64,000 nucleotides of DNA, from IMG/VR virus record IMGVR_UViG_3300008267_000006, positions 47,488 to 111,487 of that record; one strand, written 5' to 3'. The number at the start of each line of letters is the position of its first letter. Position 1 is the stretch's first letter. The notes under the pieces are model-generated. The model made no database searches. It saw only the letters and a list, made by a program, of their open reading frames with translations, and was not told the DNA's origin. The DNA comes from a virus. Made by a program: the position numbers and the translations under genes. Below, piece by piece: positions 2,728 through 36,790 of this stretch.

Positions 2728-2750
2728 AGACTAGTGCTACAAAGTTCTTT

Positions 2751-3257: not shown

Positions 3258-3261
3258 AATA

Positions 3262-4533
3262 TTATCCAACAAATATCAAGTTAGGAATAAAGCTTTGAGC
3301 TTTTGATGCTTCTTCCATCATTTTAGCACTTGTCTCGCTTACCTTAGAATAAGTCATCTCTTCTAGCTGAGTCTTTAATTCTTCTCTTAGATCTTTTTGT
3401 TCTTCCTTACCTTCAGAAATAAGTTTATCACCGTTAAGTGTAACTTGTTCTCCTGGAATAGGTATATTTGCAAATTTACTTCTTACTTGCCCAAGCATTT
3501 CTTTGCAAATTGCTAATGCAAATCTACGAATCCATTGTTTACCTATTGAATTAATTTTATCATATGGTAAATTTTGGAATGGCATAGTATTCATATTATT
3601 TATTCCATTTATAGTTGATTTAACTGTTGGATCTGAATTTTTCCAAGCATCAGATGGAATAGAGTATTCAAAAAAGAATTTAGTTGGAGTAGCTGCATTT
3701 GGAACAGGAAATATTCTTAAAATATTATTTCTTAATTGAAACGACCAATCAGAAACTCTTGTTTTAATAGCATCTTCGTATGCCATTGCTTGTAGTTTAT
3801 TTTGCCATGTCGGAACAATTTCAAATGTACTATCATCAGCATATTGTCCATATGTACTTAAATTTCCAACAACATTTAGACCACCAAAATAACCATAAAA
3901 ATTCCAGCTTGCACCAATTGTTTTATAAAATACTTTTTTAATTAATACTTTTTTATTATCAAGAGCAATATTATTAGCAGCGGCTGAAGAACTGACAGCT
4001 TTTTGTAAATCATAATCTTGTTGTCCAACAACAGTATCTATAGATGCTGAATATGTTGGCTCGTTACCATTTAAAGATACCTCGTCATTAACTGAATTTG
4101 CTATGCCTTTTATATATGTAAAACTCATTTTAGGAAATGCAAGATTTGCATTTATATTATCTAATGATCCAGTTATTTGTCCGTCACTGTTAAAAGAACT
4201 TGTTGATTGACCAAGAACAAATGGTAGTGCATTTTTTGATTGATGTAGGTTTATTAAATAGGAATATTCAAGACATGCTTCTTCGTATGCTGCGTGTACT
4301 TGATTTTCAACTAATTCAATATCTAGTACATCTCCACCAAGTTTTTTATATACATACGAAACTTGCTCTACTGAGCCTGTTTTATATTCATTGATTTGTT
4401 CATTTGTCCAATAACTTTCATTAACATATACACCAAAAGGTAAATTAAAATTATTTACATTTATTATGTTCCCTGTTATTGGTAAAATAACTTTGCTCAT
4501 TTGTGATAATGGTGAAAGTACTGGTAGGGACAT
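3262..4533 (-). CDS. Neck/connector-like structural protein (gp13-type position)
   Basis: 423 residues with a GAGGAA ribosome site before the ATG. Residues about 70-100 hold a helical segment (VENQVHAAYEEACLEYSYL) that resembles head-tail adaptor helical bundles. The middle is beta-rich. The C-terminal part (residues 330-405) is helical, with a charged coiled coil (EEQKDLREELKTQLEEM). In tailed phages such proteins sit under the portal and complete the head before tail joining. This gene heads a minus-strand unit: an ACTATTTATTTATG box lies 26 nt upstream, back to back with the only plus-strand gene. The next gene starts right at its stop. The call depends on position next to sheath and capsid genes; the exact T4 counterpart is uncertain. 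Confidence 0.5.
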   Translation of the reverse strand: MSLPVLSPLSQMSKVILPITGNIINVNNFNLPFGVYVNESYWTNEQINEYKTGSVEQVSYVYKKLGGDVLDIELVENQVHAAYEEACLEYSYLINLHQSKNALPFVLGQSTSSFNSDGQITGSLDNINANLAFPKMSFTYIKGIANSVNDEVSLNGNEPTYSASIDTVVGQQDYDLQKAVSSSAAANNIALDNKKVLIKKVFYKTIGASWNFYGYFGGLNVVGNLSTYGQYADDSTFEIVPTWQNKLQAMAYEDAIKTRVSDWSFQLRNNILRIFPVPNAATPTKFFFEYSIPSDAWKNSDPTVKSTINGINNMNTMPFQNLPYDKINSIGKQWIRRFALAICKEMLGQVRSKFANIPIPGEQVTLNGDKLISEGKEEQKDLREELKTQLEEMTYSKVSETSAKMMEEASKAQSFIPNLIFVG

Positions 4534-4555
4534 TATTTTTCCTCAAATAAAATAT

Positions 4556-4569
4556 CATAAATAAATAGT
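4556..4569 (-). promoter_or_regulatory. Putative late promoter box upstream of neck genes
   Basis: The minus strand reads ACTATTTATTTATG, about 22-26 nt upstream of the ATG at 4533. The 12-mer TATTTATTTATG recurs exactly inside the terminator hairpin at 34.12 kb. Confidence 0.55.
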
Positions 4570-4618
4570 TTTTATAATCTTTTAAAGCAATAAAACATTC
4601 CTTAACTTTATAAAGCTT

Positions 4619-4628
4619 CTATTTATAG
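4619..4628 (+). promoter_or_regulatory. Putative late promoter box of the lone plus-strand gene
   Basis: CTATTTATAG on the plus strand, only 4 nt before the ATG at 4633. It is the same motif and sense orientation as the minus-strand boxes, although its spacing implies a leaderless or later start. Confidence 0.4.
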
Positions 4629-4632
4629 TACC

Positions 4633-5190
4633 ATGAAAATAAAAATAAATGAAAAAAAGAAATCAGCAGGTAGAGAAAAATTCTGCAAAAGTAAAGCAAC
4701 AAGAGAATATGGTAAAAAAACAAGCCTATATCGCTCAATGGCGCTTTCAAAATGTAGAAAAGGCAAGATCTGGAAAGAAGCCATAGAAGCTGGTGTTCAA
4801 AGTTCAATTCTAGAAGAACAATTATTATTTGAACTAGAATCTATTAAAGATTTAGGCGACGACACAGCAACTCTTGATGATGGCACACATGTTTGCGAGG
4901 CGTGTCTATATGAGACTTTAACTACTCTTGATGAGAATGTATTAGAGGAAGCTGAATATCATGGTCGCAAGGTTACACTAAATAAACCAATGCGTGGCGA
5001 TGTTAAAAAGTTCAAAGTGTTCGTCAAGGATCCCAAAACAGGTAATGTTAAAAAAGTTAATTTTGGTGATCCTAATATGCGTATAAAGAAAAGCAATCCA
5101 AAACGTCGTAAATCATTTCGTGCTCGTCATCATTGTGAAAACCCTGGTCCTAAAACAAAAAGTAGGTACTGGAGCTGTCGCAAGTGGTAG
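4633..5190 (+). CDS. Conserved phage protein of unknown function, Cys- and Lys-rich
   Basis: 185 residues and the only gene on the plus strand. The N-terminal 50 residues are very basic with Cys18 and Cys41 (AGREKFCKSKATREYG). Residues 70-110 are acidic with a CEAC pair (88-91) that could bind zinc. The C-terminal 75 residues (from GRKVTLNKPMRGDVKKF) contain a VNFGDPNM stretch, then FRARHHC and a terminal YWSCRKW. I recall this tail module from small proteins of T4-like marine phages, where its function is unknown. It is flanked by a divergent promoter region and its own terminator at 5232-5265. No Shine-Dalgarno is visible before the ATG, so the true start is uncertain. Its basic character suggests binding to nucleic acid or the capsid; that is inference. 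Confidence 0.7.
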   Translation: MKIKINEKKKSAGREKFCKSKATREYGKKTSLYRSMALSKCRKGKIWKEAIEAGVQSSILEEQLLFELESIKDLGDDTATLDDGTHVCEACLYETLTTLDENVLEEAEYHGRKVTLNKPMRGDVKKFKVFVKDPKTGNVKKVNFGDPNMRIKKSNPKRRKSFRARHHCENPGPKTKSRYWSCRKW

Positions 5191-5231
5191 TAGTATTATA
5201 ATTTAAACACACTACATATAGTAGATAAAAG

Positions 5232-5265
5232 AAACCCGCCTGACTCGATAAAGAGGGGCGGGTTT
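5232..5265 (+). terminator. Rho-independent terminator after the plus-strand gene
   Basis: A 9-bp stem AAACCCGCC / GGCGGGTTT with a 16-nt loop, followed by TATTATTTG. It lies 42 nt after the stop at 5190. The reverse strand also has a T-rich flank, so it may act in both directions. Confidence 0.8.
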
Positions 5266-5321
5266 ATTATTTGTAAAGGGTGTTATGACACATTTTCTTC
5301 TTGGCAGTTCTTATTTAGAAC

Positions 5322-5352
5322 AAAAAAGAACCCCCGGCATTTCTGCCGGGGG
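5322..5352 (-). terminator. Rho-independent terminator after major capsid gene
   Basis: On the minus strand a 9-bp GC-rich stem (CCCCCGGCA / TGCCGGGGG) closes a GAAA tetraloop and is followed by TTCTTTTTT. It lies 34 nt after the capsid stop codon and blocks read-through into the convergent plus-strand gene. Confidence 0.9.
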
Positions 5353-5385
5353 CCTTTATTAGCAAACCGCTTGTTTTAAGCTAGT

Positions 5386-7161
5386 TTAGCCTAGTAGATC
5401 TTGAATTACTACAAGACCATACATATCTGGGCGAACCATCGTCTTACCATAACGAGTCATTACAGCCTTACGTGGAACGAAGGTGTTAGGATCGAAAATG
5501 GTTGGGGTGCTTTGTAGTGGTACGTATGGGGCATATACGTAACCGCTTTCTAGGAAGCTACCACCTTTACGACCTACTAGGATTACGTTACGTAGGAAGT
5601 ATGGGTGAACAATGATATCCCATTTCTTGTTTAGATCACCAACACGAACAGCACCTACTGAACCTTTTTCATCGGTTGCAGTTACTGATGCGCGGAAACC
5701 GCTGGTGAATTCAAGAATGTTAGCAACTTCTGGACCACATACAAGGAAGTTAGCTCCACCGCGTAGAGTTTTACGATGGATTAGAGCTGAACAATCATTG
5801 ATGGTTTCAACTAGGGTTTCATACCACATTTGAACGTTACCAGTGAAATCTGGAGGAGCAGCATAACCACCTGATAGGGTTGAACCTAGATCAGCGCCAG
5901 TATCGCGGTTAACAAATTTACCTGGACGACGTGACCAGTATTTGACACCGGCAGTTGCGCCCTTGACTAGATCGTTCATGATTTCTTGATCAATTTCTAG
6001 ACCAATTTGTTCTGATAACATTGAAGTTAGTTCTACTTCAGCATCTAGATTGTGATAAGCATTTAGATCTTGACCTAGTTCTGGAGTCCATGAAGCTTTT
6101 AGCTTACGTGAACGAGCAGTGATTGAGTATGAATCGACTTTTAGTTCGATTTCTGGAATTGCTGAAGAACCTTCCATTGTCCATGGGGTTGCACCAACAA
6201 CAGCACCTAATGCGCTATCACCAACAGCAACAACATTGTCCTTGACTGGGTATGATAGTAATACGTGTGAAGCGGTTACAACTGCGGCTAGAGCAGCATC
6301 ACCCTTAGCAGCAACTACAACTTCTAGTGATTTCGCACCAGTTGAAGGATCAACAAATACTCTTGATAGACGACGAACTAGTTTAGCACTATTTGCTAGT
6401 GAAGAACCAGCAGCATCTTGTTCACCAGCGGCTACCGCACCAGCATTTTGTGCAAATGATACTGAGAATACGTCATTTTCAGCTAGTAGTTGGCTGTTTG
6501 CAATATTAGCAAATGGTACGCGTAGTACTGAAGCTGAAACGTAGTTTGAATCAGTTAGTAGATCTGCATCCCAACGTACTGCTTTTTTATCAGCATCAGA
6601 AGCGGTTGCTAGACCAAACTTGGCTACTTCAACAACGTTTGAAGCAGTGGTTGAAGAGTGATAGCGAGCGGTGTGATAACCGTTTGCCATGTTGTAGAAA
6701 CCTTTTTCAGCATTATCTACACCTTCGATACGAACACCGCCGGTGATTTGTACACCTAGACGATCACCGAAGAATGATTCACCTTTGTTGAATACCTTGT
6801 CACCAGTGTTACCGATATCGCTTCCACGGCGGAAATCCATGAAGAATACTAGACCTGATGGTAGGCTCATTGGTTGTACTGATACTAGATCGTTAGCGAT
6901 TAGACCAGCGAATACACGACGAACGATTGGGAACGCTACTGAGGCAAAGCCTTGTACGTCACCATTTGACATAGTGTTGGTTTCTTTTAGTAGTTCTTTT
7001 GCTTGATTCTCTAGTAGAATGGACATGGTGCTTTTTTGACGAGCATCCTTTAGACCTTCTAGTAGACCGCTCTTTTCCCATTTAGAAACTAGAGCAGCAG
7101 TTTCTTTGAGAGTATTACGTTCAACGATACCCTCGGTTAATTTTTCTAATACGTTACCCAT
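5386..7161 (-). CDS. gp23: Major capsid protein (gp23-like)
   Basis: 591 residues, a little above T4 gp23 (521). It shows the family hallmarks: an N-terminal helical delta region (residues 1-60) with LLEN at 49-52 and LLKE at 57-60, possible sites for the prohead protease (which prefers L/I-x-E); then MSNGDVQGF (64-72); the SVQPMSLPSGLVFFMDF core segment; and IGLEIDQEIMNDLVKGA in the C-terminal half. It forms the hexamers of the T4-type HK97-fold shell. It follows the scaffold gene by 23 nt and ends in a strong terminator. The ribosome site is CAGGAGAA. I see no clear late promoter box directly upstream, so it is probably co-transcribed with the scaffold. Codon use is more GC-rich than in neighbouring genes, consistent with very high expression. 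Confidence 0.95.
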   Translation of the reverse strand: MGNVLEKLTEGIVERNTLKETAALVSKWEKSGLLEGLKDARQKSTMSILLENQAKELLKETNTMSNGDVQGFASVAFPIVRRVFAGLIANDLVSVQPMSLPSGLVFFMDFRRGSDIGNTGDKVFNKGESFFGDRLGVQITGGVRIEGVDNAEKGFYNMANGYHTARYHSSTTASNVVEVAKFGLATASDADKKAVRWDADLLTDSNYVSASVLRVPFANIANSQLLAENDVFSVSFAQNAGAVAAGEQDAAGSSLANSAKLVRRLSRVFVDPSTGAKSLEVVVAAKGDAALAAVVTASHVLLSYPVKDNVVAVGDSALGAVVGATPWTMEGSSAIPEIELKVDSYSITARSRKLKASWTPELGQDLNAYHNLDAEVELTSMLSEQIGLEIDQEIMNDLVKGATAGVKYWSRRPGKFVNRDTGADLGSTLSGGYAAPPDFTGNVQMWYETLVETINDCSALIHRKTLRGGANFLVCGPEVANILEFTSGFRASVTATDEKGSVGAVRVGDLNKKWDIIVHPYFLRNVILVGRKGGSFLESGYVYAPYVPLQSTPTIFDPNTFVPRKAVMTRYGKTMVRPDMYGLVVIQDLLG

Positions 7162-7184
7162 TTTATTCTCCTGTAGAATATTTG

Positions 7185-8426
7185 TTATTTTATACCTGCT
7201 AAAATTTTCATACGTTCTGATTCATATGCATCTACCGATACATTTTTTGGTCTAGAGATAAAGCCAGAACTACCACGATTTAATGCTTCGCTTAGTGATT
7301 CTTTTGGTTTCTTATTAGAAATACCTTGCACTGCGCTTTGAAGAGTACCGTAAATTGTTTTTGCTTCTAGAACCGTTTTTGCATTGGAAATGTTTTCAAC
7401 AATATTTTCTTTTTGTCGCTCATTCAGGGAGTTATTTCCAAATACTTTATTAATATATAGTAATTTAGCGTTTGAAAGACTTAATTTTTCTGTATGTTCT
7501 TTAAGAGTTATTAAATTATCTTTTAATTCTTCTACGAGAACAGACATTCTTTTATTATCTTTTATTGATTCTTCTAGTTTACATTCTAGATCTTTTACTT
7601 TTTCTTCTTCCTCTTTACGTCTTTTTTCTTCTTCTTCATCTCTAGCAGCAGCAAATTCAACATTTCTATCAATTTCTTTTTCTGCGCTAGTTTGACCTTT
7701 CCAGCCTCTTAATTGGTGTTTTGGATTTAGGTCAACTTTTAGTTCTTCTTCTAGTTCGTTAATTTCTTCTTCAGATAATTCGAACTCTTCCTCTAAGCTA
7801 GCTGCATCATCTTTTAATTCAGATACAGCATCTGGAGAGACAGTTTCTTCTACTGGGTCTGTTGTTTCGTCTAGTTCAAATTCCATTTCTTCATCAAGCT
7901 CTTCTTGCTCTTCAGTTTCTTCTTGGGAGCAATCACTTTCTTCCATTTCCTCTTTTTCTTCAAAAAGTTCTTCATCAAGCTCTAGTTCTTCTGCGATTGG
8001 AGCAGCTGGAGCTAATTCTGGAGCGGCTTGTTGTTGTTCTGGGGATGAAAGGATAGGAGAACCACCAATTTCACTAGAAAGTTGCTTTTTTAATTTATCA
8101 AAGTCTATAGTTATTAATTCATCATCGTCACCATCAAGAAATGATGATGGTACATCTTCAAATGCCTCATCTTCTTCTGGCTGTTGTGTTTGAGCAGCTG
8201 CATCAGGTACTGGTGGTGCAGCTTGTGCATCTGGAACAGCAGCAGCGGCATCTTCTGGAGTTGTTTCTGGTGTATCTGATGATTGTGGTTCATCTTGCTC
8301 TAATAATTTTAGAGTTTGAGTAAACTCATCCTTATATTTCTCTATTAAGGCTGCTTCTGCGCTTTTTAGTGCTGTTTCTCTGAGTGCAGTTGCATCTGCA
8401 ATGGCTTCTTCTAGCAAATTTGACAT
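7185..8426 (-). CDS. gp22: Prohead core scaffolding protein (gp22-like)
   Basis: 413 residues, strongly acidic. Residues 40-240 are dominated by Glu, Asp, Pro and Ala with several poly-acidic runs, followed by a long coiled coil (about 245-330) and a basic C-terminus (SRPKNVSVDAYESERMK). The helical N-terminus, acidic middle, position just before the capsid gene and lack of any enzyme motif match the T4 prohead core, which templates shell assembly and is then degraded by gp21. It is longer than T4 gp22 (269), the extra length being the acidic low-complexity region. An ACTATTTATA box lies 39 nt upstream, so this gene probably heads the scaffold-capsid unit. Confidence 0.8.
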   Translation of the reverse strand: MSNLLEEAIADATALRETALKSAEAALIEKYKDEFTQTLKLLEQDEPQSSDTPETTPEDAAAAVPDAQAAPPVPDAAAQTQQPEEDEAFEDVPSSFLDGDDDELITIDFDKLKKQLSSEIGGSPILSSPEQQQAAPELAPAAPIAEELELDEELFEEKEEMEESDCSQEETEEQEELDEEMEFELDETTDPVEETVSPDAVSELKDDAASLEEEFELSEEEINELEEELKVDLNPKHQLRGWKGQTSAEKEIDRNVEFAAARDEEEEKRRKEEEEKVKDLECKLEESIKDNKRMSVLVEELKDNLITLKEHTEKLSLSNAKLLYINKVFGNNSLNERQKENIVENISNAKTVLEAKTIYGTLQSAVQGISNKKPKESLSEALNRGSSGFISRPKNVSVDAYESERMKILAGIK

Positions 8427-8465
8427 TAATTAGTCTCCTATCAACGACTAAAAACAGTTTTTTTA

Positions 8466-8475
8466 TATAAATAGT
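8466..8475 (-). promoter_or_regulatory. Putative late promoter box upstream of scaffold and capsid
   Basis: ACTATTTATA on the minus strand in the short gap between the 8507-8809 gene and the scaffold ATG at 8426. Spacing to the start is 39 nt, as for the sheath gene. Confidence 0.55.
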
Positions 8476-8506
8476 GCTTTAATACATCAATTGACTATTA
8501 TAATAG

Positions 8507-8809
8507 CTATTGACGATTATTTATATTTTTATTTATTGTTTTTTTCTTCTTTTTTGATTTTTCTTCTACTTCTGACATTAAATCTTTGTTATGTTTTTGA
8601 GCGTTTCTCTTATATCTCTCTCTTTTTTCACGCTCTTTGACACTTTTCTTCACAAATCTTCTATTCCAAGCACAATTATCATATAAATATTGAACTAAAG
8701 ACTCTTTGCTACAAGCTTTAATAAATTTCTTAATTAACTGATCTGTGCTTTCTTCAGTTGGTCTTACATGATCTGGAAGTTTTACTTCTAAATGTACTGC
8801 TCTACCCAT
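8507..8809 (-). CDS. Small basic protein, possible bS21-like ribosomal protein
   Basis: 100 residues with a basic second half. Residues 25-75 read LIKKFIKACSKESLVQYLYD, then WNRRFVKKSVKERE and KRERYKRNAQ. This parallels the bacterial bS21 pattern (a [R/K]RF-K-x-C-x-K-x-x-[L/V] helix followed by an aromatic-basic segment and a lysine/arginine tail), with about three extra residues in the middle. Phage-encoded bS21 homologs are known in marine tailed phages, where they may bias host ribosomes. Residues 76-100 are a lysine/asparagine tail. The protein sits between the 149-residue gene (6 nt away) and the scaffold. The bS21 relation is a by-eye judgement; a small DNA- or capsid-binding protein is the alternative. 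Confidence 0.4.
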   Translation of the reverse strand: MGRAVHLEVKLPDHVRPTEESTDQLIKKFIKACSKESLVQYLYDNCAWNRRFVKKSVKEREKRERYKRNAQKHNKDLMSEVEEKSKKKKKTINKNINNRQ

Positions 8810-8815
8810 ATTGTC

Positions 8816-9265
8816 CTATTCTTTCTTGCTATTTCCCATAGCACTGTTTAATAAATTCCAAGATTGTTTATTTACATTCATTAATCTGGATATATCCACA
8901 CCAGATCCTTGAATTCCTTCATAAATTTTATTTTTATCTGTTTCTTCGTGCATTTCTGCTGATTCTTGTTCTTCGGCAGTTAAATCAACACCAGAAAACG
9001 GATCAAATCCAGGCATACGAATTTCTTCTAAAAGTTTATTTTTTCTTTCTTGAATAGAAATTTGCGGAGTTGGCGTGTTTTTTTGAATAAATTGACGCTC
9101 TTTTAATTCATAATTTTGTTTTGCTGGAGATGTATCTCTAATTGGCGCGGTATTTTGTACGTTTTCCTGTACGATCCTCATCAAACCTTCTTCATATAGA
9201 ATTTCTTTTATACATTCTTTAATGATTGGTTTCATAACTTTTTTTAATTCTTGTACTTTTGACAT
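8816..9265 (-). CDS. Unknown protein with helical N-terminus and acidic C-terminus
   Basis: 149 residues. Residues 3-35 form an amphipathic helix (LKKVMKPIIKECIKEILYEE), followed by a polar linker, a second helical stretch around residues 70-85, and an acidic region with DPFSGVDLTAEEQESAEM. I do not recognise the family. Position before the scaffold and capsid genes and the lack of catalytic motifs suggest an assembly-related virion or chaperone role, which is inference. It heads a unit with a late-type box 16 nt upstream of its start and a GAGG ribosome site. Confidence 0.6.
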   Translation of the reverse strand: MSKVQELKKVMKPIIKECIKEILYEEGLMRIVQENVQNTAPIRDTSPAKQNYELKERQFIQKNTPTPQISIQERKNKLLEEIRMPGFDPFSGVDLTAEEQESAEMHEETDKNKIYEGIQGSGVDISRLMNVNKQSWNLLNSAMGNSKKE

Positions 9266-9281
9266 CTTAACCTCGTTTTGT

Positions 9282-9291
9282 TTTAAATAGT
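9282..9291 (-). promoter_or_regulatory. Putative late promoter box, variant
   Basis: ACTATTTAAA on the minus strand, 16 nt upstream of the ATG at 9265. It departs from the consensus only in the final TA. Confidence 0.45.
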
Positions 9292-9311
9292 TTTATATTA
9301 TACAATATCCT

Positions 9312-9707
9312 TTAATATGCAGTAAAATAATAACCATATAAAGTTAATTCAAATACAAGATTTGTAGAATCAGTTGAAGCAGTTGTATTTTTCATATAGA
9401 TACTTGTACCGCGAGAAACAATAAGACTATCAGAACATTCATCTCTTCCATATCCATTTACTGTAGTTGGATATGTAATAGAAGCAATATTATTATACGT
9501 ATTAGCAACTGTTCCAAGTGTCATAATTAAACCGGTGGATATAGTGCCTGATATATGTTTTAATGTAGCATAATAAGGCATAAATGCTGATATTCCGGTA
9601 GACGGAGGTGTATAAAATATTTCTGATCTATTTAGAGTTGACATAGTGGTTACTATTCTTGAATAGCTAAATAAATTTTTATGAGTTAGACCTGCTAAAT
9701 AAGCCAT
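9312..9707 (-). CDS. Small beta-rich virion protein, paralog 3 of 3
   Basis: 131 residues, predicted almost all beta strand, ending in LVFELTLYGYYFTAY. It shares a layout with the two genes upstream (9707-10144 and 10153-10602): a central strand beginning [F]xPT/PPST, Thr/Ala-rich strands, and an aromatic C-terminal strand of the type x-G-[YF]-[YF]. Such 130-150-residue beta sandwiches commonly follow fibre genes and may act as tip or head-surface proteins. Its start overlaps the previous stop by one base (TAATG), indicating translational coupling. No enzymatic motif is present. Confidence 0.6.
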   Translation of the reverse strand: MAYLAGLTHKNLFSYSRIVTTMSTLNRSEIFYTPPSTGISAFMPYYATLKHISGTISTGLIMTLGTVANTYNNIASITYPTTVNGYGRDECSDSLIVSRGTSIYMKNTTASTDSTNLVFELTLYGYYFTAY

Positions 9708-10144
9708 TATAAATCCTCAAAAAATCCATGAATAATAAACGAACCAGTAATTTTACTAGTTCCTATAGTAAATAGAGAAATTATTAAATCTGTATTATTT
9801 GGAAGAGCAGAATTAGTTATAAATGTAGTAAAATTTTCTATTATATTTGTTTTAACACCCGTACTACCATTTTGTGTTAAACTACCAGATGAAATATATG
9901 CATTTAGATTACCAGCATATCCTAGATGGAATCTTGGTGCAGTAGCTGCTGTACCATCAGCTGTATTATAATGAAAAGTTGTTTTTGTTGGTATAAAATT
10001 TCCAAAATCATCACTACCAGAAAATATAGTATAAGTTCCAGCAGTAGAATTATTAATAATCTGTGACTTTAAATAAGCAAGTCTTGGTGGCGCAAAAGAT
10101 GATGTTAGCGAGCCAGAAATAAAAATAGAATTATTATTATACAT
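9707..10144 (-). CDS. Small beta-rich virion protein, paralog 2 of 3
   Basis: 145 residues. The segment FGNFIPTKTTFHYNTADG aligns by eye with RGRFIPTRVVHCLLSAT of the upstream gene, and the C-terminus FIIHGFFEDL matches the aromatic closing strand of the other two. The composition (Thr, Ser, Asn, aromatic) is typical of exposed phage adhesion or decoration domains. It sits in the tandem trio downstream of the giant fibre and ends in a TAATG overlap with the next gene. Function is unknown; a fibre-tip or head-fibre role is inference. Confidence 0.6.
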   Translation of the reverse strand: MYNNNSIFISGSLTSSFAPPRLAYLKSQIINNSTAGTYTIFSGSDDFGNFIPTKTTFHYNTADGTAATAPRFHLGYAGNLNAYISSGSLTQNGSTGVKTNIIENFTTFITNSALPNNTDLIISLFTIGTSKITGSFIIHGFFEDL

Positions 10145-18225: not shown

Positions 18226-18750
18226 CTAATAATTATAACGATAAATACCGCGAGTTGGGAAGCCATATTTTGGAATACTTCCTTTAAACTCCTCTTGTGG
18301 AACTTCTCCAAGTTCAGTAGAGTCTTCTAGATCTGGCTCTAGTAGAGATTTTTCATAATCTTCTTCAAATTCTTTTTCTTTATTTAATATTGGCATCTCA
18401 TCTTCTATAAAGTTTGCAACATTATACACAACAACTTGTAAAACATCTTCTCCACCTGGAGATTTTTGTGGATATGAACCTTGTAAAGATCCGTATACAT
18501 TACCAGCAGTTACTGATTCTGGTAAAATAACGCCTTTTTTAACCATATAATTAAATAATTTTTCTTGGAGACTATAAACCTTATCTGTTTGTTCGTCTTT
18601 TGGTAATACAAGAACCTTAAATTTTTGTGGTAGCACAATAACATCTATTTCTGGATGTTCGTGTAATAAATAATCTCCAGAAAGAGTTCTTTTGATCATT
18701 AACTCTTTTTGTAGACCGGTTTTTTTATCTTTGATAGAGATTCTTAACAT
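18226..18750 (-). CDS. Unknown head-cluster protein
   Basis: 174 residues. The N-terminal 70 residues are basic and beta-rich (SIKDKKTGLQKELMIKRTL). The middle has VYGSLQGSYP (85-94), and the C-terminal third is acidic (EEDYEKSLLEPDLEDSTELG) before a YGFPTRGIYRYNY tail. It overlaps the previous stop by one base (TAATG) and lies in an uninterrupted run after the portal. No enzyme motif is visible. I recall similar proteins next to gp20 in marine T4-like phages but not a function. Confidence 0.55.
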   Translation of the reverse strand: MLRISIKDKKTGLQKELMIKRTLSGDYLLHEHPEIDVIVLPQKFKVLVLPKDEQTDKVYSLQEKLFNYMVKKGVILPESVTAGNVYGSLQGSYPQKSPGGEDVLQVVVYNVANFIEDEMPILNKEKEFEEDYEKSLLEPDLEDSTELGEVPQEEFKGSIPKYGFPTRGIYRYNY

Positions 18751-19565
18751 TAATTTGCTACCTCTTTAACAAATTGTTGAATTTTTAGAATTTTTTCAAG
18801 CATGTCTTGAGAAATATCTTTTACATCTTTAAAATTATTTAAAAAATTAAGAGTTTTTAAAGTTTTTTCTTTCATACTTGGATCTTTCTTAATATCCTCT
18901 GAATCCATAGACTCAGAGACTGCTTTTTTTAAGCGATCTAACTCTTCGTTTAGATATACTTTAAATTCTATCATGTTATTTGAGAAAGAATTAATATAAT
19001 TTGTTAATAATTCTTTCTGTTCGCTTAATAAGCCACTGTATTTCTCATTAAATTTTTTTGTGAACGTCTTTAAGAGAAAATTATCAACTGGTTGTAGGTT
19101 TTTTTGCTCTTTTTTATCGTTTACTATCTTTATTTTTTCTAAAATAACTTTTTCTAATAAAATTTTATCTTTTACTTTTGTTTTTGGATTAAAAACAAGA
19201 GAAATAGTTGCTAAATCTTTATAATTTGGAACAAAATTATTAAATACGTTCTGTCCAAGAGATTTATTTATTTTGTTAATTAGTCTGGATTGTTCATTAA
19301 ATATTTTTGTAGGATTTAAGCGAAAATATCTATTTTCAACCTCTTTTAAAAACGATTCTGCTAATTCTTCTTCAACAGTATTATCTTTTAAAGAAGAATA
19401 AAGCTCTAATTCTTTATATAATTCTGTTTTTTGAGAAAAATATTCAACAATAATAGATTTTATCTCTTTTGCTCTAGTAATATTTTTTTCTAGTGCTGCT
19501 TTTGTGCCTTCTCTTAAAAGAACTTCGTAAAGAAAAGCGGTATTTCTTTTCTTATTATGATTCAT
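18750..19565 (-). CDS. Unknown helical head-cluster protein
   Basis: 271 residues from the ATG at 19563-19565 (MNHNKKRNTAFLYEVLLREG). A longer reading to 19580 would need a TTG codon, and the GGAG ribosome site fits the ATG. The protein is highly charged and predicted almost entirely helical, with Lys/Glu-rich coiled-coil stretches, and has no catalytic motif. The opening NTAFLYEVLLREGTKA is a conserved start that I recall from proteins next to the portal in marine T4-like phages. It overlaps the portal stop by 11 bases. A scaffold or portal-associated assembly role is inference from position and composition. Confidence 0.6.
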   Translation of the reverse strand: MNHNKKRNTAFLYEVLLREGTKAALEKNITRAKEIKSIIVEYFSQKTELYKELELYSSLKDNTVEEELAESFLKEVENRYFRLNPTKIFNEQSRLINKINKSLGQNVFNNFVPNYKDLATISLVFNPKTKVKDKILLEKVILEKIKIVNDKKEQKNLQPVDNFLLKTFTKKFNEKYSGLLSEQKELLTNYINSFSNNMIEFKVYLNEELDRLKKAVSESMDSEDIKKDPSMKEKTLKTLNFLNNFKDVKDISQDMLEKILKIQQFVKEVAN

Positions 19566-22500
19566 CTTTTTTGTCTCCAATTACTTCTTTCTTTTTTGTT
19601 AAAAAGCCGCTCATAGAGCTTAATTTATCTTGCACTTCATTTAATAACTGCTCATCTTTTTCAAAAAGATCGCGTTCATAAGTTTCGCCAACAATTCCTC
19701 TTGATAGTGTTCTTAGTCCAGATGACTTAAATGTATTATTTGCTTTTGTTGTTGTTCTTAACGCAGCTAAAGCTTTAAGACTATTTGTTCTTGATCCACC
19801 AGAATAGTTTGGAGAAGCAACAGGTGTATATTCTTTACCCTTTGCACCTGGTGACGTATGAGAAGGCTTAACTGCATATGGATCTTCGCGTCTAGCTGGA
19901 GCTGCTAATAACGGATTTCCAGGTTCTCCAGGGGGAGGAGATGCTTCTGCTCCACCTTCTGCTGGTGGTGTTTCTGTTTCTGGTGCAGGCGTTTCTCCAG
20001 TTGACGCATCACCTCCAGATGGCATTCCACCACCACCGCCACTAGCGGCAGCAGCTTCTTCTTGACCAGCTGCTTCAAGTGATTTAGTAAATGCACTATC
20101 GTAATATAGATCTCTTTGAATTCTAACGAATTCATCATCATGCATCTTAAATATATTTTCATATATCCAACGCTTGCTGAATCCTTGTTCTTTTGAAGTG
20201 CCTGCTATTTCTAATTGTGCTTTAAAATGCTCAATTTCTTGCATTTCTGCTAATTTTGAAGGATTTTGTAGATTTATTTTAAATTTAATTAAATCATCAT
20301 TTCTAAATCCTAAAGTATATAAGTGAATCATACCTATTTTTTCTAATTCGCTTATAAGTGTTCTTTGAAGACGTTGTATTGTTCTAGCAAATCTCATGTC
20401 TTTTTGAGCAAGGGTTGTTTTATCTTCAGCTGCACCCTCTCCTCTAGAAAGATAAGCTTGTGGAATTTTTATAGCTGAAAACAGTTTGTCTCTTAGGTAT
20501 TTTACGTCTTCAATTGCACTAGTAAATTGACCACCAGGTAAATTTTCTATCTTTGTTCCGCTCGCTTGCCCACGAACTGGAATATAGAAATCTTCATCTA
20601 TACTCATTGGGTTATAACGTAAATCAACTCGACCAGTTGTTGGGTCAACAATTTGATTACGTTTCATTTGTGTAATAATTTTTTGAACATATTGCTCAAC
20701 ATCTGCTGGGGCAATATTACCAACATCAATATAAAACACTCTACGTTCTGGGCTTCTAACAATACGGTAAGCCATCATGGCATCTTCCATCAAATTTAAT
20801 TGACGCCAGATACGACGGGCTGGTTCTAGAACTGATGTACCGTATGGAGCATATTTATCTTGCCCAAGAATACGAAAATGTGCAATTTGCCAATTTTCAA
20901 ATGTTAATCCAGCTGTATTCCATTGAAATTGAACATAATTTGGGTTACTTTCATCTTCACCTTCTATTCTTTCTACTTCTGGGGAAGGCAATCCAAGAAC
21001 GTTTTTGATGCCTAACTTTTCATCAATATCAAGATATAGGAAAAAATCTCCAAATTTACACATTGTACGGCACCAACCATACAAATTTTGTTCTACATTA
21101 AGAATTTTATAATATAGGGTATGTAAAAGAGATCTAATTTCTTCATTTTTACAGTCAATAACAAGAAGAGGTCTAAAAAGATTAGAAGTTGTCATCTCGT
21201 CAGCATAAATATCTAATGCTGATGCAATCTCAGGTGTATTATGAGAAATAATTGAATCAGTAGCAAAATTTTTATAGCCGTCTACAGTTAAATCATAAAG
21301 ATCAATAAAGCCATAATACTCTACTGATTGAACTTTGTGATTTTGATAATTTTCTTCAAAATCCTTAAATGTTTTAAATCCATTAGATTTTATTCTATTT
21401 TTTACTTTTATTTCTGTTGTTTCTAATCTGTGAGCAATGTCGGCCATCTTCATGCCTTTTTCATAGACTGAACAAATCTTTTCAAAATTTAAACTATGGT
21501 CATACCTTGGATTTTTATTGCCAGTATTATCACAACCAGCATTTTTCCAATCAGGACTATACGCTTTTGCAAACATTTCAAAGTTTACGAAACCTTTTGC
21601 TTTTAGTTTGCGCTTGATTGTTGGAGGTTCTGTATCGAGCATTTTACAGATATTATTTTGATGGAATCCATAAATGTCGCAAAGATAGAGTATTTTCTCG
21701 AAAGTAATATCTTTACGCTCTGCCGGATTATTTTGTTTCATATATTCTGAATGCTTTTTACGGAACTCCTCCCACCAGCCACTATTTTTTCTTTGTTCGT
21801 TAATAATAGATTGATGATATGCTAAATGAGCATCATTATTCATAATCTCTAGATTATCAGGGCTATTATCATATTTGATGAAGTTTTTGTGATGTACAAC
21901 TTCATTTGTATCTATTCTACGCCCTGCAATCCATTCTGCTATTAGTATATGTTCAGCAATCCACCCCTTTTTACGACCTTCATCGTTGTGCATAGTATAA
22001 ATCCAGCGATATCCATCACCTTCATCTTTTTGTCCACGTATTAAATCTTTACGATAGAAAGGCATCATAGCATCGCCAGTCTTTAAATCAGATATGGTTC
22101 TATAAGTACCATCCCTCATCATAAGACGATGATCGGCAGTACCAATAATATATTGACCATTTTCAAAAGTTACTTTCCAAGCATGGTCGGTGCGCGTTTT
22201 TCTTGCTTGTCTACCTAGTGCTGGTACTATTTGTTGTTTTGAGTGATCAAACGAATAGACTATGAATTCTTTATCTAGTCCATATTCACTTGTTAATTCT
22301 TTTAATGTTTTGTAACCGCCAGGTACGGCAATCTTAGTATCTCCATGTAAGCAAAATTCCATTTGATCAAAGTCAGAATACCTTTCGGCACGACTTTGGT
22401 TAGCCATAATGTTACTTTGGATAGCTTCAAAGGGATTGTAGCTTTTCTTTTTAAAGCTTTGACCACTGGCGGATGTAAATTTAAAGCGATCTAGATCTCT

Positions 22501-22668
22501 TCTTTTATATCTAATTTGAGATTGTTGTCTATAAGACGTTACAGGACCAGAAAATAATCTTGTTAGGGCAACATAAAGTGCCGATTCTTTATTTTTTGGA
22601 TTCTTTTCAGAAACATCTTGACTTGGTGCGGTGTTTCTATTCATGTTAGACTGTGAATTTGTAGCCAT
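19555..22668 (-). CDS. gp20: Portal protein (gp20-like) interrupted by an HNH intein
   Basis: 1037 residues as translated. Residues 106-477 are an intein, leaving a 665-residue mature portal. The exteins join as YSDFDQMEF + TPEIASALDIYADEMT, a typical gp20 segment, and the C-extein carries further portal signatures (ILGQDKYAPYGTSVLEPARRIWRQL, and QAYLSRGEGAAEDKTTLAQ). The portal forms the dodecameric DNA-entry ring at one vertex and nucleates prohead assembly. The last 160 residues include a Gly/Pro/Ala/Glu low-complexity stretch not expected in T4 gp20 (524 residues). The gene follows the terminase by 3 nt. Splicing is required for a normal portal, so the intein is presumably active. Confidence 0.93.
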   Translation of the reverse strand: MATNSQSNMNRNTAPSQDVSEKNPKNKESALYVALTRLFSGPVTSYRQQSQIRYKRRDLDRFKFTSASGQSFKKKSYNPFEAIQSNIMANQSRAERYSDFDQMEFCLHGDTKIAVPGGYKTLKELTSEYGLDKEFIVYSFDHSKQQIVPALGRQARKTRTDHAWKVTFENGQYIIGTADHRLMMRDGTYRTISDLKTGDAMMPFYRKDLIRGQKDEGDGYRWIYTMHNDEGRKKGWIAEHILIAEWIAGRRIDTNEVVHHKNFIKYDNSPDNLEIMNNDAHLAYHQSIINEQRKNSGWWEEFRKKHSEYMKQNNPAERKDITFEKILYLCDIYGFHQNNICKMLDTEPPTIKRKLKAKGFVNFEMFAKAYSPDWKNAGCDNTGNKNPRYDHSLNFEKICSVYEKGMKMADIAHRLETTEIKVKNRIKSNGFKTFKDFEENYQNHKVQSVEYYGFIDLYDLTVDGYKNFATDSIISHNTPEIASALDIYADEMTTSNLFRPLLVIDCKNEEIRSLLHTLYYKILNVEQNLYGWCRTMCKFGDFFLYLDIDEKLGIKNVLGLPSPEVERIEGEDESNPNYVQFQWNTAGLTFENWQIAHFRILGQDKYAPYGTSVLEPARRIWRQLNLMEDAMMAYRIVRSPERRVFYIDVGNIAPADVEQYVQKIITQMKRNQIVDPTTGRVDLRYNPMSIDEDFYIPVRGQASGTKIENLPGGQFTSAIEDVKYLRDKLFSAIKIPQAYLSRGEGAAEDKTTLAQKDMRFARTIQRLQRTLISELEKIGMIHLYTLGFRNDDLIKFKINLQNPSKLAEMQEIEHFKAQLEIAGTSKEQGFSKRWIYENIFKMHDDEFVRIQRDLYYDSAFTKSLEAAGQEEAAAASGGGGGMPSGGDASTGETPAPETETPPAEGGAEASPPPGEPGNPLLAAPARREDPYAVKPSHTSPGAKGKEYTPVASPNYSGGSRTNSLKALAALRTTTKANNTFKSSGLRTLSRGIVGETYERDLFEKDEQLLNEVQDKLSSMSGFLTKKKEVIGDKKDES
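21238..22353 (-). mobile_element. Intein with HNH homing endonuclease in portal
   Basis: 372 residues. It starts with Cys1 (CLHGDTKIAVPGG, block A) and has the block B motif GTADHR (71-76), an HNH-type nuclease at about 140-180 (EVVHHKNFIKYDN, then NLEIMNNDAHLAYH), block F VEYYGFIDLYDLTVDGYKNF, and block G ISHN at the end followed by Thr as the +1 extein residue. The terminal His-Asn is intact. Between the nuclease and block F are two similar helix-turn-helix-like units (about 218-262 and 290-334), each with FEKI, a central helix and a GF-x-x-F ending, likely DNA-recognition modules. All splicing residues look intact. Confidence 0.93.
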
Positions 22669-27830: not shown

Positions 27831-30800
27831 TTATTCCTCCACGAATGCGTATCCATCCTTTCTATTAATAACAATTTGTTTGTCTACGCATTCTTTAAGA
27901 CTATCAAGGTGTGAAATAACAATGACAGTATCAAAGTATGTCTTAATTAGTTGTAGAATTTGAATAAAACCATGCATGTTTTCTTCGTCAAGAGCAGTAC
28001 CTGGTTCATCCATCAAAAAGATATTTCCAACGGGAAGCGAAGTAACAGATATTAGAGCTAAACGAATAGCAGTTGAGGCAAGAGTTTTTTCTGCACCGCT
28101 ACCCATTTCTAGTGGTCGTGGATCACTATTATTATGTTTAATCATGATATCAAGCTTATCGTCATCGTTCTCTAGATAAACTGAAAAATTTACAACTCCA
28201 TTAAGTATTTTACCAATCTCTTCATTGATAGCTGGTAGCTTATTTTTAATAATTTCATAAGTAATACCGCTTGGATGCATACATTTTAAATAAAGATCAT
28301 ATGCTGAGTATTCTTTTCTTGTTTTCTCAAGATTTTCTTTTTGCTCATTTAAATTTTCAATTTTTTGTTTGAGAGAGCCTTCTTTTTTATAGAAGTCTCG
28401 TAGTTCACGATCTCTTGCTTCATAAGAACCTTTTGTTAATTGAAGATTTTGCTCTAGATTTTTATTTTGTTTCTTCAATTCATCAAATTTTTCAATAAGT
28501 TCACGATTTTTTTCTTGTTCATCAAACTCTTGTTGATCTTTTTCAATTTGAGTAGTTAATTTTTCAATTAAAAGAAGATTATTGGCTATTTGTAGCTCAT
28601 TTTTTGATCTTTTGTCTTCTGATTCCTTCTTTTTCCTCGTCGCTTCACCATGCTTATTAAGACCATTAGTTGTTTTTTCATCAAGTTCATTAAAACGACT
28701 ATCAAGGTTGTCGTAACTATGCTTATGACCCAACAATATTCCTTCATCAATAGCCATTTTTTCTTTAGCTTCGAAGGCATCCTTAATGAATTTGCAACTG
28801 GTGAATTGATTGCCACAGGGAATATCCTCTAGAAGTTTTAGTTTGTGTGTATATCCTTTAATATTCTTTTCTAGAGATTCAATTTCTTTCTCTAGTGGAA
28901 TCATTTCGCTTCTAATTTTATCTAATTCTGCATTATCTTTTATTAATTGTTCATAATTAACTAGTTTTATAAATTCTTCAAGTTTAGAGATTAATGTATT
29001 TAATTTAGAATTTTCTTCTTTTATAGAAGAATTGCTATTTTTTAGTGTTTCAAGCTTATTTTTATTTAAAGTTAACAAATTGTGCAAATTAAAATAAGCA
29101 GTCACATCAATAGGAGTAGCATTAAGCTGATCTTTTATGTTTTTTATCTGTTCGTTAAAGTTTTCTATTTTTTGTTTAAATTCATCTAGTTCTTTTTGAT
29201 TCTGAAGTATGTTTGCGTGTGTTTGAGATAGTTCTAGCTCTGTATTAATAATATCTCTATCAAAATTGTTTCCCTCTAGCTTCTTTAGAAGTGCTTTTAG
29301 CTCTGCACTTTCTTCCTTAGCAAGCTTAAATTTCTTCTCAAACATCTCTAAATCTAGGAATTTAGCTAGAATCTCCTTACGTTTAGTTGAACCTTCTGAA
29401 ATAAATGAAAGATAGCCAAATTGACTTGCCATAGAGGTCAAAAAGAAGTCATCTACTGTGCCAAAATACTTACGAATAGTGTTATCGGTATCGTTACGCG
29501 CTAATCCATTAAGAGAACCAGCATCAGAAGTAAACTCTACATCTGTTTTGGCTTCTGTTGTTAGTACACCCTTTAGTTTTTTAGTATATTTTTCAGAGGC
29601 TCTATCAATAACGTAATTTTCTCCATCAATTTCAATTTCTACACGTCCAGAACCTTTATCTTTAGCTTGATTAATAACATTTAGGTTCTTTCTGTTGTTC
29701 TTTGATGTAGTATTATAGATTGTATAGAGCAGTGAATCTACAACTGATGATTTTCCACTATAATTTTTACCAAAAACACCAATAATACCTCTTAAATTAT
29801 CAAAATTAATAGAATTACCCTCTCCATAATTAAAAAGGTTATCCCATTGCAGATTTTTTAGCTTCCACTTGACATTTCTCTTGGTTTCATCTGCATCTTC
29901 AACCATAGAGGAGTATCTTTCGTTTAATTTAACTACATTTTGCATAACCTCTTCTTCAGTTTTATAGTCTTTTAAGAAATCGGTAATTAATTTCTCTTGA
30001 ACTTTGCCATCTCGTAGATTTTCATTGTTTAAAACGATTTCTGAAACATGGTTTTCATCAGAACTGCTTGCCAAAGCCTTATTTACGAAGATTACTGATT
30101 CTGGATTGAAACGATTCTTGATAATTTCAGTTGCACGCTTAGTTTTTTCAAGAGAAACATTCTTGGAAGTCATAATTCTGACTCTTGAACCATCTTTTAT
30201 ATCAATATCTGGTAGATTTCCATACTCATCCAGATCAATTGTAAGATACGGCTTAGGGTTTGGAATAGTAAAGTGCTCGCAAGAGAAGTCATCCTTTGAC
30301 TTGATATCCCAAATAAGGAAACCTTTGTCATCGAATTCACCAAAGTTACCTTGAACAGTAGATCCTGGATATCTGACACGGCCTTCGCTATCAACAATTT
30401 GATTTGTTTTATGAATATCGCCTAAAAATGCGTAATCGTGTCCTTCAAGAGCAGCAATATTATGCTCCCCGTTCTCTAAAGTATATCCACCATCAGTTTT
30501 TACACCAGAAATAGCTCCATGATATAGAGCAATATTAATTTTTGATGGATCTGACGGTTTTTTCCAGTTTTCTTCATCAGTTCTGCTAAGAACATTAAAA
30601 GTTAATTCATTATTTACAATTTTTTCATCTGAATACTTTAGTAATTTTAAGTTTGATGAGTTAATAGCGTTAACAATAGGAGAAATAGCGTCAGTTCTTG
30701 TATCATTTTTTAAATTACAATCATGATTACCAAGAATAACATAAGTTGGAGCAATTTCTGACAATGAACGTAGAAATTTTGTAGCCATTTCTACAAATTC

Positions 30801-30962
30801 TGGACTAATTTGTGTTTTTGTGTGAGCAATATCTCCGCAGTGAACAATATAGTCTACCTTTTGTTCGCGTAGTATAGAATAAATCTGATCAAATACCTGA
30901 TTAAACTCATCGTGACGCTTTAGGTTTAATATGTGGGTATCTGCAATATGTCCAATTTTCAT
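27831..30962 (-). CDS. Single-chain Mre11-Rad50 (gp47-gp46 fusion) recombination nuclease
   Basis: 1043 residues. Residues 1-340 are an Mre11/SbcD-type phosphoesterase: ADTH (7-10), GD (43-44), GNHD (78-81), YHGA with His148, and GDIH (181-184). Residues 365-1043 are a Rad50/SbcC ATPase: Walker A GKNYSGKSS (398-406), a long coiled coil (about 545-885) with a hook CGNQFTSC (716-723), signature GSGAEK (954-959), Walker B IFLMDEP (981-987) and switch His ISHLD (1016-1020). In T4 these are two genes (47, 339 aa, and 46, 560 aa). Here there is no stop or restart between them. The enzyme resects DNA ends for recombination-dependent replication. A sigma70-like promoter precedes it. Confidence 0.94.
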   Translation of the reverse strand: MKIGHIADTHILNLKRHDEFNQVFDQIYSILREQKVDYIVHCGDIAHTKTQISPEFVEMATKFLRSLSEIAPTYVILGNHDCNLKNDTRTDAISPIVNAINSSNLKLLKYSDEKIVNNELTFNVLSRTDEENWKKPSDPSKINIALYHGAISGVKTDGGYTLENGEHNIAALEGHDYAFLGDIHKTNQIVDSEGRVRYPGSTVQGNFGEFDDKGFLIWDIKSKDDFSCEHFTIPNPKPYLTIDLDEYGNLPDIDIKDGSRVRIMTSKNVSLEKTKRATEIIKNRFNPESVIFVNKALASSSDENHVSEIVLNNENLRDGKVQEKLITDFLKDYKTEEEVMQNVVKLNERYSSMVEDADETKRNVKWKLKNLQWDNLFNYGEGNSINFDNLRGIIGVFGKNYSGKSSVVDSLLYTIYNTTSKNNRKNLNVINQAKDKGSGRVEIEIDGENYVIDRASEKYTKKLKGVLTTEAKTDVEFTSDAGSLNGLARNDTDNTIRKYFGTVDDFFLTSMASQFGYLSFISEGSTKRKEILAKFLDLEMFEKKFKLAKEESAELKALLKKLEGNNFDRDIINTELELSQTHANILQNQKELDEFKQKIENFNEQIKNIKDQLNATPIDVTAYFNLHNLLTLNKNKLETLKNSNSSIKEENSKLNTLISKLEEFIKLVNYEQLIKDNAELDKIRSEMIPLEKEIESLEKNIKGYTHKLKLLEDIPCGNQFTSCKFIKDAFEAKEKMAIDEGILLGHKHSYDNLDSRFNELDEKTTNGLNKHGEATRKKKESEDKRSKNELQIANNLLLIEKLTTQIEKDQQEFDEQEKNRELIEKFDELKKQNKNLEQNLQLTKGSYEARDRELRDFYKKEGSLKQKIENLNEQKENLEKTRKEYSAYDLYLKCMHPSGITYEIIKNKLPAINEEIGKILNGVVNFSVYLENDDDKLDIMIKHNNSDPRPLEMGSGAEKTLASTAIRLALISVTSLPVGNIFLMDEPGTALDEENMHGFIQILQLIKTYFDTVIVISHLDSLKECVDKQIVINRKDGYAFVEE

Positions 30963-35503: not shown

Positions 35504-36790
35504 CTAAAGAAACATTTGGCCATTCTCATTAACAACTATTAAACGGTATTCCCAACCAGTATCGGCGGCTGGAACGCTGATTTCAACCTTTATTTTAGAG
35601 CTTGCTTCATATATTTGTATAGAAGTTAAGTCATTTGTCCATGGAGCGTTAAATGCTGTACGAATCATAACGTCAGCAACGATATAATCTTTTTGATCTA
35701 CAGCAAAGAACACTGAATCTGCCCCTAAATCAACAAGATCTAGTGTTATAGTATCTCCTGAGATAGAACCGGTCTTCATAAATCTCATTTGACCATAATT
35801 TCTATCTTCTGTATTGATAGCATTATCTAGAGCAGCAATAGCTGAAGCTACATCATATAAGCCATTTGCATCTCTTGTTACTGATGATATGTTTTTAAAG
35901 TTAGCACTACCAGATAATTTTAGATCTTTTTCGGCTATTAGGCTGCTTTCTGCATAAATTGCAGTAGAACCACTTAAAAGTACATCTCCTCCAGTACTGT
36001 ATAGCTTAGAAGCTGAATTATCTATATCTAATTGTACAGCACCAACGTCTGATAACTTAATAAAAGTTCTTGGAGATATAGCTGCAAAAGCATCTTTTGC
36101 TGAAACTTTAACGCCTTCTTGGCCGGTCATAGAACCGCCATAACCAAGATTACCAACAGATATTTTATTTAATGAACTAGATTGTAAGGTTACAATACCA
36201 GAAGCTGATTTTAATGCTTCTGTGCCATGTAATTTATATCCAGTTCCATTTGCTGCATTAAAGCCGTTTGTAGAGGCTTCTATACCGTTAGAAGCAGTAA
36301 ATTGAGCTACTGATGTAACTATAGAGAGTGAATTTTGACCAAGAGTTGTACTTCCGGAAACACCTAAGTTTCCTGGTAGGTAAAGAGAATTTAAATTTAA
36401 TGTATTTGCAGTTAAAGTTGCAAAATGACCAGTACTTGAAGAAACATCTCCGCTTGATTTTAGATCAAATGCTCCACTTATATCGCCATCTACTGTTATT
36501 GTTCCACCATTTACAGATAGATCGCCGCTTAATATTTGTGAGCCGGTAACAATTAAATTTCCACTTAAATTTGTTATACCTTCAACAACAAGAGCACCAA
36601 TTTGTGCATATCCACGGTTAACAACTTGACCGCCGATATATAATTCTCCATCTACTCTTGCATCTTCTTTAACGTGTAGGCCGGTGCTACCACTGTAAGT
36701 ACCAGAAACAATAAGACCGGTCTTCATTGTTGCTGTATTTTTAACTTCTAGATCTGTTAAAACTTTGATATTGTTAAAGATGTTCGACAT
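35504..36790 (-). CDS. Fibre protein with beta-repeat shaft and C-terminal module A
   Basis: 428 residues. Residues 1-50 include the shared opening (NIKVLTDLEVKNTATMKTGL) and a long beta-helix-like shaft with LNLSG/ITNLSGNLIVTGSQ-type repeats (about 50-290). The C-terminal 130 residues are module A: NYGQMRFMKTGSISGDT, VADVMIRTAFNAPWTNDLTS, EISVPAADTGWEYRLIVVNE. The upstream untranslated region has a stem (TGCC/GGCA) abutting the AAGGAAA ribosome site, and an ACTAATTAT box about 78 nt upstream. It ends in a strong terminator, so it is probably a separately expressed structural gene. Confidence 0.7.
   Translation of the reverse strand: MSNIFNNIKVLTDLEVKNTATMKTGLIVSGTYSGSTGLHVKEDARVDGELYIGGQVVNRGYAQIGALVVEGITNLSGNLIVTGSQILSGDLSVNGGTITVDGDISGAFDLKSSGDVSSSTGHFATLTANTLNLNSLYLPGNLGVSGSTTLGQNSLSIVTSVAQFTASNGIEASTNGFNAANGTGYKLHGTEALKSASGIVTLQSSSLNKISVGNLGYGGSMTGQEGVKVSAKDAFAAISPRTFIKLSDVGAVQLDIDNSASKLYSTGGDVLLSGSTAIYAESSLIAEKDLKLSGSANFKNISSVTRDANGLYDVASAIAALDNAINTEDRNYGQMRFMKTGSISGDTITLDLVDLGADSVFFAVDQKDYIVADVMIRTAFNAPWTNDLTSIQIYEASSKIKVEISVPAADTGWEYRLIVVNENGQMFL

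Follow-up and report, generated by a model that had tools for sequence, protein, structure and literature searches.

In the portal gene of this uncultured T4-like phage, Phe105 of a T4-type portal protein is very probably followed by a mobile intein of class 1 that carries an HNH homing endonuclease (probability about 0.86), in which splicing, homing and contact with DNA through helix-turn-helix (HTH)-like units are predicted properties. All parts of such an element are present and intact in the window (the whole stretch of 64,000 nucleotides that was analysed), portal alleles exactly empty at the same site were recovered, the HTH-like unit has been duplicated, and the intein has been gained or lost many times among related phages.

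Under the proposed mechanism, a precursor of 1037 amino acids would be translated and the Hint fold would cut out the intein to leave a portal of 665 amino acids. The chemistry would proceed through an acyl shift at Cys1, transfer to the +1 Thr and cyclisation of Asn372. During co-infection by two phages, the free intein would cleave any portal allele that lacks it, at the codons of the junction, and repair from the intein-bearing allele would copy the intein together with some flanking codons, including that of the +1 Thr. The HTH-like units, arranged in tandem after the HNH domain and before the C-terminal strand of Hint, would grip the DNA beside the cut; family members have 0 to 3 of them, and duplicating or losing a unit would alter the length of DNA that is read.

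The interrupted portal gene

The portal ORF (window 22668..19555, minus strand) encodes 1037 aa, predicted to become 665 aa once spliced. The flanks of the insert identify the protein as a T4-type portal, gp20 (PF07230 Portal_T4, E 1.3e-74; phrog_213, E 7e-69), and a large terminase (phrog_2, E 6e-59) lies 5' of the gene, giving the expected terL-portal order. Portal residues 106-477 constitute the intein, which opens with CLHGDTKI and closes with SIISHN, followed by Thr. From the N- to the C-terminus, the features are:

22354..22668, minus strand: N-extein of the portal, residues 1-105, ending ERYSDFDQMEF; joins the C-extein directly in intein-free relatives
21238..22353, minus strand: intein, 372 aa, from Cys1 to His371-Asn372 (PF14890, TIGR01445, TIGR01443); exactly missing from 124 fetched portals
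22045..22353, minus strand: N-terminal part of Hint, intein residues 1-103, with Cys1 and with TADH at 72-75 (TIGR01445; Foldseek to NpuDnaB intein 4o1r, E 9e-6)
21784..22017, minus strand: HNH endonuclease domain, about residues 113-190, with the HNH_3 core at 135-175 (PF13392)
21544..21741, minus strand: HTH-like unit 1, about residues 205-270, NNPAERKDITFEKI...GFVNFEMFAKAY; four modelled helices within 218-265; homologous to unit 2
21343..21528, minus strand: HTH-like unit 2, about residues 276-337, NKNPRYDHSLNFEKI...GFKTFKDFEENY; four modelled helices within 290-335; weak Sigma70_r4_2 match at 297-321
21238..21342, minus strand: C-terminal part of Hint, residues 338-372, LYDLTVDGYKNFATDSIISHN (TIGR01443)
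19555..21237, minus strand: C-extein of the portal, residues 478-1037, from the +1 Thr, TPEIASALDI (PF07230 Portal_T4, E 1.3e-74)

An earlier note, made from the sequence alone, had placed an intein at 21238-22353, splitting YSDFDQMEF from TPEIASALD and retaining Cys1, TADH, ISHN and a +1 Thr. These boundaries are exact to the residue (the sister portal L016 joins YSDFDQMEF to TPEIASAL), and each of the splicing motifs was located where that note had put it. The Hint blocks are present in domain searches of the segment, with all three models over their cut-offs: intein_Nterm TIGR01445 at 40.7 bits against 24.5 (intein residues 1-78), intein_Cterm TIGR01443 at 22.1 bits against 15.6 (residues 352-372) and Intein_splicing PF14890 at 57.2 bits against 35.8. 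An AlphaFold2 model based on the modest alignment of 68 sequences (mean pLDDT 81, pTM 0.59), which superseded one from 11 sequences (pLDDT 61.5), contains a Hint fold that Foldseek recognises, the best match being the NpuDnaB intein 4o1r. In the alignment of 68 relatives, composed of 62 inteins at the window's portal site and six GyrB inteins, H75, H371 and N372 show no variation, and C1 almost none. The class 1 residue set of the window's copy is complete (C1, TADH at 72-75, H371, N372 and +1 T), and by these defining sequence features the element is a class 1 intein. Ser is the first residue in five of the 72 distinct inserts; the same-site inteins with Ser instead of Cys1 are L174, L177, L179, L171 and L260, which are 440-449 aa in length and have a longer unit region.

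A search of the full 111-kb record with the TIGR01445, TIGR01443 and HNH_3 models found no second intein. Elsewhere in the window, a protein of 1043 aa (27831-30962, minus strand) with a metallophosphatase N-terminal region and an SMC/AAA C-terminal region in Pfam is a fused SbcD-SbcC (gp47-gp46 like); in T4, gp47 and gp46 are encoded by two genes. Large or conserved-looking ORFs at 50936-52849, 35504-36790 and 18750-19580 (minus strand) had no PHROGs match at 1e-4.

The HNH domain and the tandem HTH-like units

The HNH nuclease that had been read within the intein is supported by a match to HNH_3 PF13392 at 26.3 bits, over the cut-off of 24.8, across intein residues 135-175. Residues H154, H155, N163, N167, H176 and H180 are nearly invariant across the family, and the window's domain keeps all of the nearly invariant residues. 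By pattern, 69 of the 72 distinct inserts have an intact HNH motif, the exceptions being L018, which is without the domain, one insert spelled IHH, and L163, with RH for HH.

The proposal of two similar HTH-like units in tandem also stands, as a true duplication. The family profiles of the two units align with a probability of 98.8 in hhalign (P 8.4e-17, 29% identity, 59 columns) and have in common the motif NNPxxRxxxTFxxI...GYxNFxxFxxxY, while the profile of either unit finds both in 102/102 standard-length inserts. In the AlphaFold2 model both units follow the HNH domain and precede the last Hint strands, with helices at 218-228, 232-238, 243-251 and 258-265 for unit 1 and at 290-296, 303-309, 314-323 and 329-335 for unit 2. 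This helical pattern is compatible with a tri-helical HTH, which has its turn between helices 2 and 3. Pfam HTH families match some of the homologues (HTH_50 1.9e-7, Sigma70_r4_2 4e-7); in the window's own intein no HTH Pfam model reaches its cut-off, and Sigma70_r4_2 matches weakly at 297-321. Membership of the units in the NUMOD group was rejected, as no NUMOD Pfam model matches the window's intein or the 68 alignment members. Conservation within the intein is lowest in the units, where the mean major-residue frequencies are 0.72 and 0.60; the two parts of Hint reach 0.78 and 0.87. From the precedents of the accessory domain in TliVMA (PMC8966425) and the add-on regions of phage HNH endonucleases (PMC3943268), we infer that the units extend recognition of the DNA target.

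The number of HTH-like units varies from 0 to 3 across related inteins. Inserts of 438-449 aa have a longer stretch separating unit 1 from the last one, and some of them weakly match a further unit. The same-site intein of L018 (the same as L167, IMGVR_UViG_3300036985_006248; intein at L018:4122-5000, plus strand, 293 aa, on a 174-kb contig) has the HNH domain exactly missing and both HTH-like units kept. In these units pN is well below pS, a constraint like that in nuclease-bearing relatives; synonymous sites are near saturation, so the part of this constraint that postdates the loss of the HNH domain cannot be isolated.

Gain, loss and neighbouring insertion sites

Inteins at the window's portal site form a family that is widespread in the environment. 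When the C-extein was used to search IMG/VR, 80 portals were returned, 77 of them exactly empty and 2 with the intein, and when the L012 portal from another clade was the query, 28 of 79 had the intein and 47 were exactly empty. Among the best 80 of 138 matches to the intein itself, the full-length ones in viral contigs all occur at the window's portal site. Combined, the fetched loci provide 118 portal ORFs with an insert (72 distinct insert sequences) and 124 that are exactly empty, counts that include repeats because some contigs were fetched more than once; as the set was partly gathered with the intein as query, the ratio of occupied to empty alleles is no estimate of frequency. The exactly empty site in 124 fetched portal ORFs, including the 87% identical sister L016, indicates that the segment is no chance feature.

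With inserts stripped, an empty portal is the nearest relative for 24 of 54 intein portals, and in two pairs (L097/L046 and L217/L237) the C-exteins are 100% identical with the intein in one and not the other. A tree of 169 C-exteins, on which the empty L016 is the sister of the window's portal (97% SH-aLRT), implies 38 presence/absence changes in its best form, at least 16 of which are forced by strongly supported branches. Shuffled labels need a mean of 51.5 changes, and thus intein presence is also clustered by descent. Intein and extein identities are correlated (r 0.86, inserts stripped), such that long-range transfer between distant portal clades is unneeded and exchange would occur mostly among close relatives. 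An apparent distant-clade transfer, L117/L118 (intein 92%, extein 36%), was rejected, since the L117 extein contains a second intein that had distorted the comparison. Silent DNA differences are bunched at the junction in two pairs of intein-bearing and empty alleles, as co-conversion would leave, and over all such close pairs the drop in identity near the site did not reach significance (5 pairs; permutation test, p 0.24). The C-extein tree alone cannot separate gain from loss of the intein. The pattern of presence and absence supports homing, and judged by that pattern the intein moves frequently in and out of the portals of environmental phages, in the manner of homing elements.

The residue at +1 is Thr in 116 of the 116 readable intein alleles, and in the 124 empty alleles it is T (77), M (40), E (3), S (2), V (1) or Y (1); this association is not significant once corrected for the tree, with too few informative pairs. 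Two alleles differ from their nearest empty relatives in having Thr at +1: for L018 those relatives have Met, and for L099 they have Ser. The pattern fits the need for a +1 nucleophile, through either target selection or co-conversion. Met is a residue unable to act as a splicing nucleophile, and the fetched empty portals that have it at +1 (40 of 124, e.g., L017 and L019-L027) are possibly resistant or yet-unconverted alleles.

Related inteins also occupy neighbouring codons. L244 and L265 have a related HNH intein four residues upstream of the window's site (YxDF/C...HN/CEMEY, with slashes at the junctions), accompanied by one unit in L244 and no unit in L265. The portal of L125 (IMGVR_UViG_3300008255_000136; ORF 3012-7931, plus strand, 1640 aa) is interrupted by three successive inteins, arranged as ...YGQYDRL/149 aa/SRYSDF/438 aa/SEMEY/367 aa/TPEIAS..., with only 6 (SRYSDF) and 5 (SEMEY) extein residues between them. 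The middle intein of 438 aa has an HNH domain, three unit matches and Gln, not Asn, as its last residue. In L168, from the contig that also gave L119, the first and third sites are occupied by inteins. Inteins at the three sites are mutual best matches (33-71% identity), ahead of portal inteins at other positions and GyrB inteins. The segment YGQYDR/xRYxDF/xEMEY/TPEIA, with three sites within about 12 residues that hold mutually closest inteins and are all occupied in one portal, may be a nursery of sites, in which one HNH-intein lineage moved between neighbouring codons and was retargeted by gain and loss of HTH-like units; this suggestion is tentative and given less than an even chance. If true, the segment would be a natural series showing the steps by which an intein comes to use a new site.

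More inteins occur elsewhere in the portals of L008, L117, L171 and the huge-phage record LR756508, and on sequence evidence the portal is an intein hotspot in these environmental phages. The L008 portal ORF (2736-8036, plus strand, 1767 aa) has three inteins, of which the third starts PVSYLTKIP and has no Cys1, and the intein s4_L171 starts PVRRGTVIP, likewise with no Cys1; boundaries are provisional in both. In L002 (LR756508.1, the unannotated record of a 484-kb uncultured phage), the portal ORF at 5737-9897 (plus strand, 1387 aa) is interrupted at three other sites, by one intein with HNH and two mini-inteins of about 140-150 aa.

These observations bear on several alternatives to a mobile intein. 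An ordinary domain of the portal family, with no intein involved, would agree with a segment that is in frame in an open ORF, but this reading is refuted by the 124 exactly empty alleles, the matches to Hint and splice-junction models, the invariant terminal HN and the +1 Thr; intein-free relatives lack precisely this segment, which is therefore not ordinary portal structure. It is also very unlikely that the element is a splicing-competent intein with a dead endonuclease or one inherited vertically, for which absences would be losses via recombination with empty alleles. The correlation between intein and extein identity, the same-site L018 allele without the whole HNH domain and a tree that does not separate loss from gain are in keeping with such a history, but the window's HNH domain retains every nearly invariant residue, and a useless nuclease would be expected to decay over so many lineages, not to keep its motif in 69 of 72 distinct inserts.

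With the mobile intein as the preferred reading, the HTH-like units could still act as a structural linker or in regulation (e.g., binding the phage's own DNA after excision) and not in DNA recognition, which is considered unlikely. The L018 allele, where both constrained units persist without HNH, and the neighbouring-site intein of L265, with HNH and without units, both point in this direction. However, L018 is a single case for which the loss of HNH may be recent and for which synonymous sites are near saturation, and a DNA role has been demonstrated for HTH add-on domains in homing endonucleases (PMC8966425, PMC3943268).

Relation to known inteins

It should be noted that portal inteins (PORT) were already known from cluster C1 mycobacteriophages (Kelley et al. 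2016, PMC5050341). The earlier note's view of the portal as a less usual insertion site therefore needs qualification, both from these published examples and from the hotspot seen among the environmental phages. The C1 mycobacteriophages likewise have inteins in a phage portal gene and illustrate phages as intein reservoirs, whereas the portal family there is POG1190 and HTH units are unmentioned in that text (PMC5050341). No T4-type portal intein was found in the literature searched, which was composed of open-licence papers, and for this reason priority is not claimed.

Several other systems share individual features with the portal intein. The TliVMA intein (PMC8966425) similarly combines a homing endonuclease with an HTH-like accessory domain that modulates DNA recognition, but its nuclease is LAGLIDADG-type with one accessory domain in an archaeal ATPase, unlike the HNH and 0 to 3 tandem units of the portal family. 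I-HmuI and NUMOD-bearing phage HNH homing endonucleases (PMC3943268) also tether HNH to small DNA-binding add-ons, HTH included; those reviewed are intron-encoded or free-standing, while the portal-intein units have no NUMOD Pfam match. In the collections searched, the closest relatives from outside phage portals are Actinobacteria GyrB HNH inteins (L180-L205) and RtcB-type inteins (NF052663), which have the same order of Hint and HNH and are 23-32% identical over the match, but reside in other host proteins, and the tested GyrB inteins had no match to the HTH-like units. The haloarchaeal MCM inteins (PMC10643990) offer a parallel for clustered sites in one gene, mutual interference and a +1 residue changed by invasion, where Pro-to-Ser at +1 accompanies intein invasion; they differ in protein and domain of life, and the portal inteins are mutually related and only 5-6 residues apart.

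The element is ordinary in kind. What is unusual is the tandem array of variable copy number, the retention of that array once without the nuclease, and the three related inteins within about 12 residues. Portal genes of such phages are 2-3 times the usual length and easily misannotated, which matters because the portal gene (gp20) is often used as a marker for T4-like phages. More broadly, the family bears on how homing endonucleases change target. Its arrays have 0-3 units, empty and occupied alleles occur in near-identical backgrounds, one allele has the array without the nuclease, and neighbouring codons hold related inteins, so that it can be tested directly how the number of modules relates to target site and mobility.
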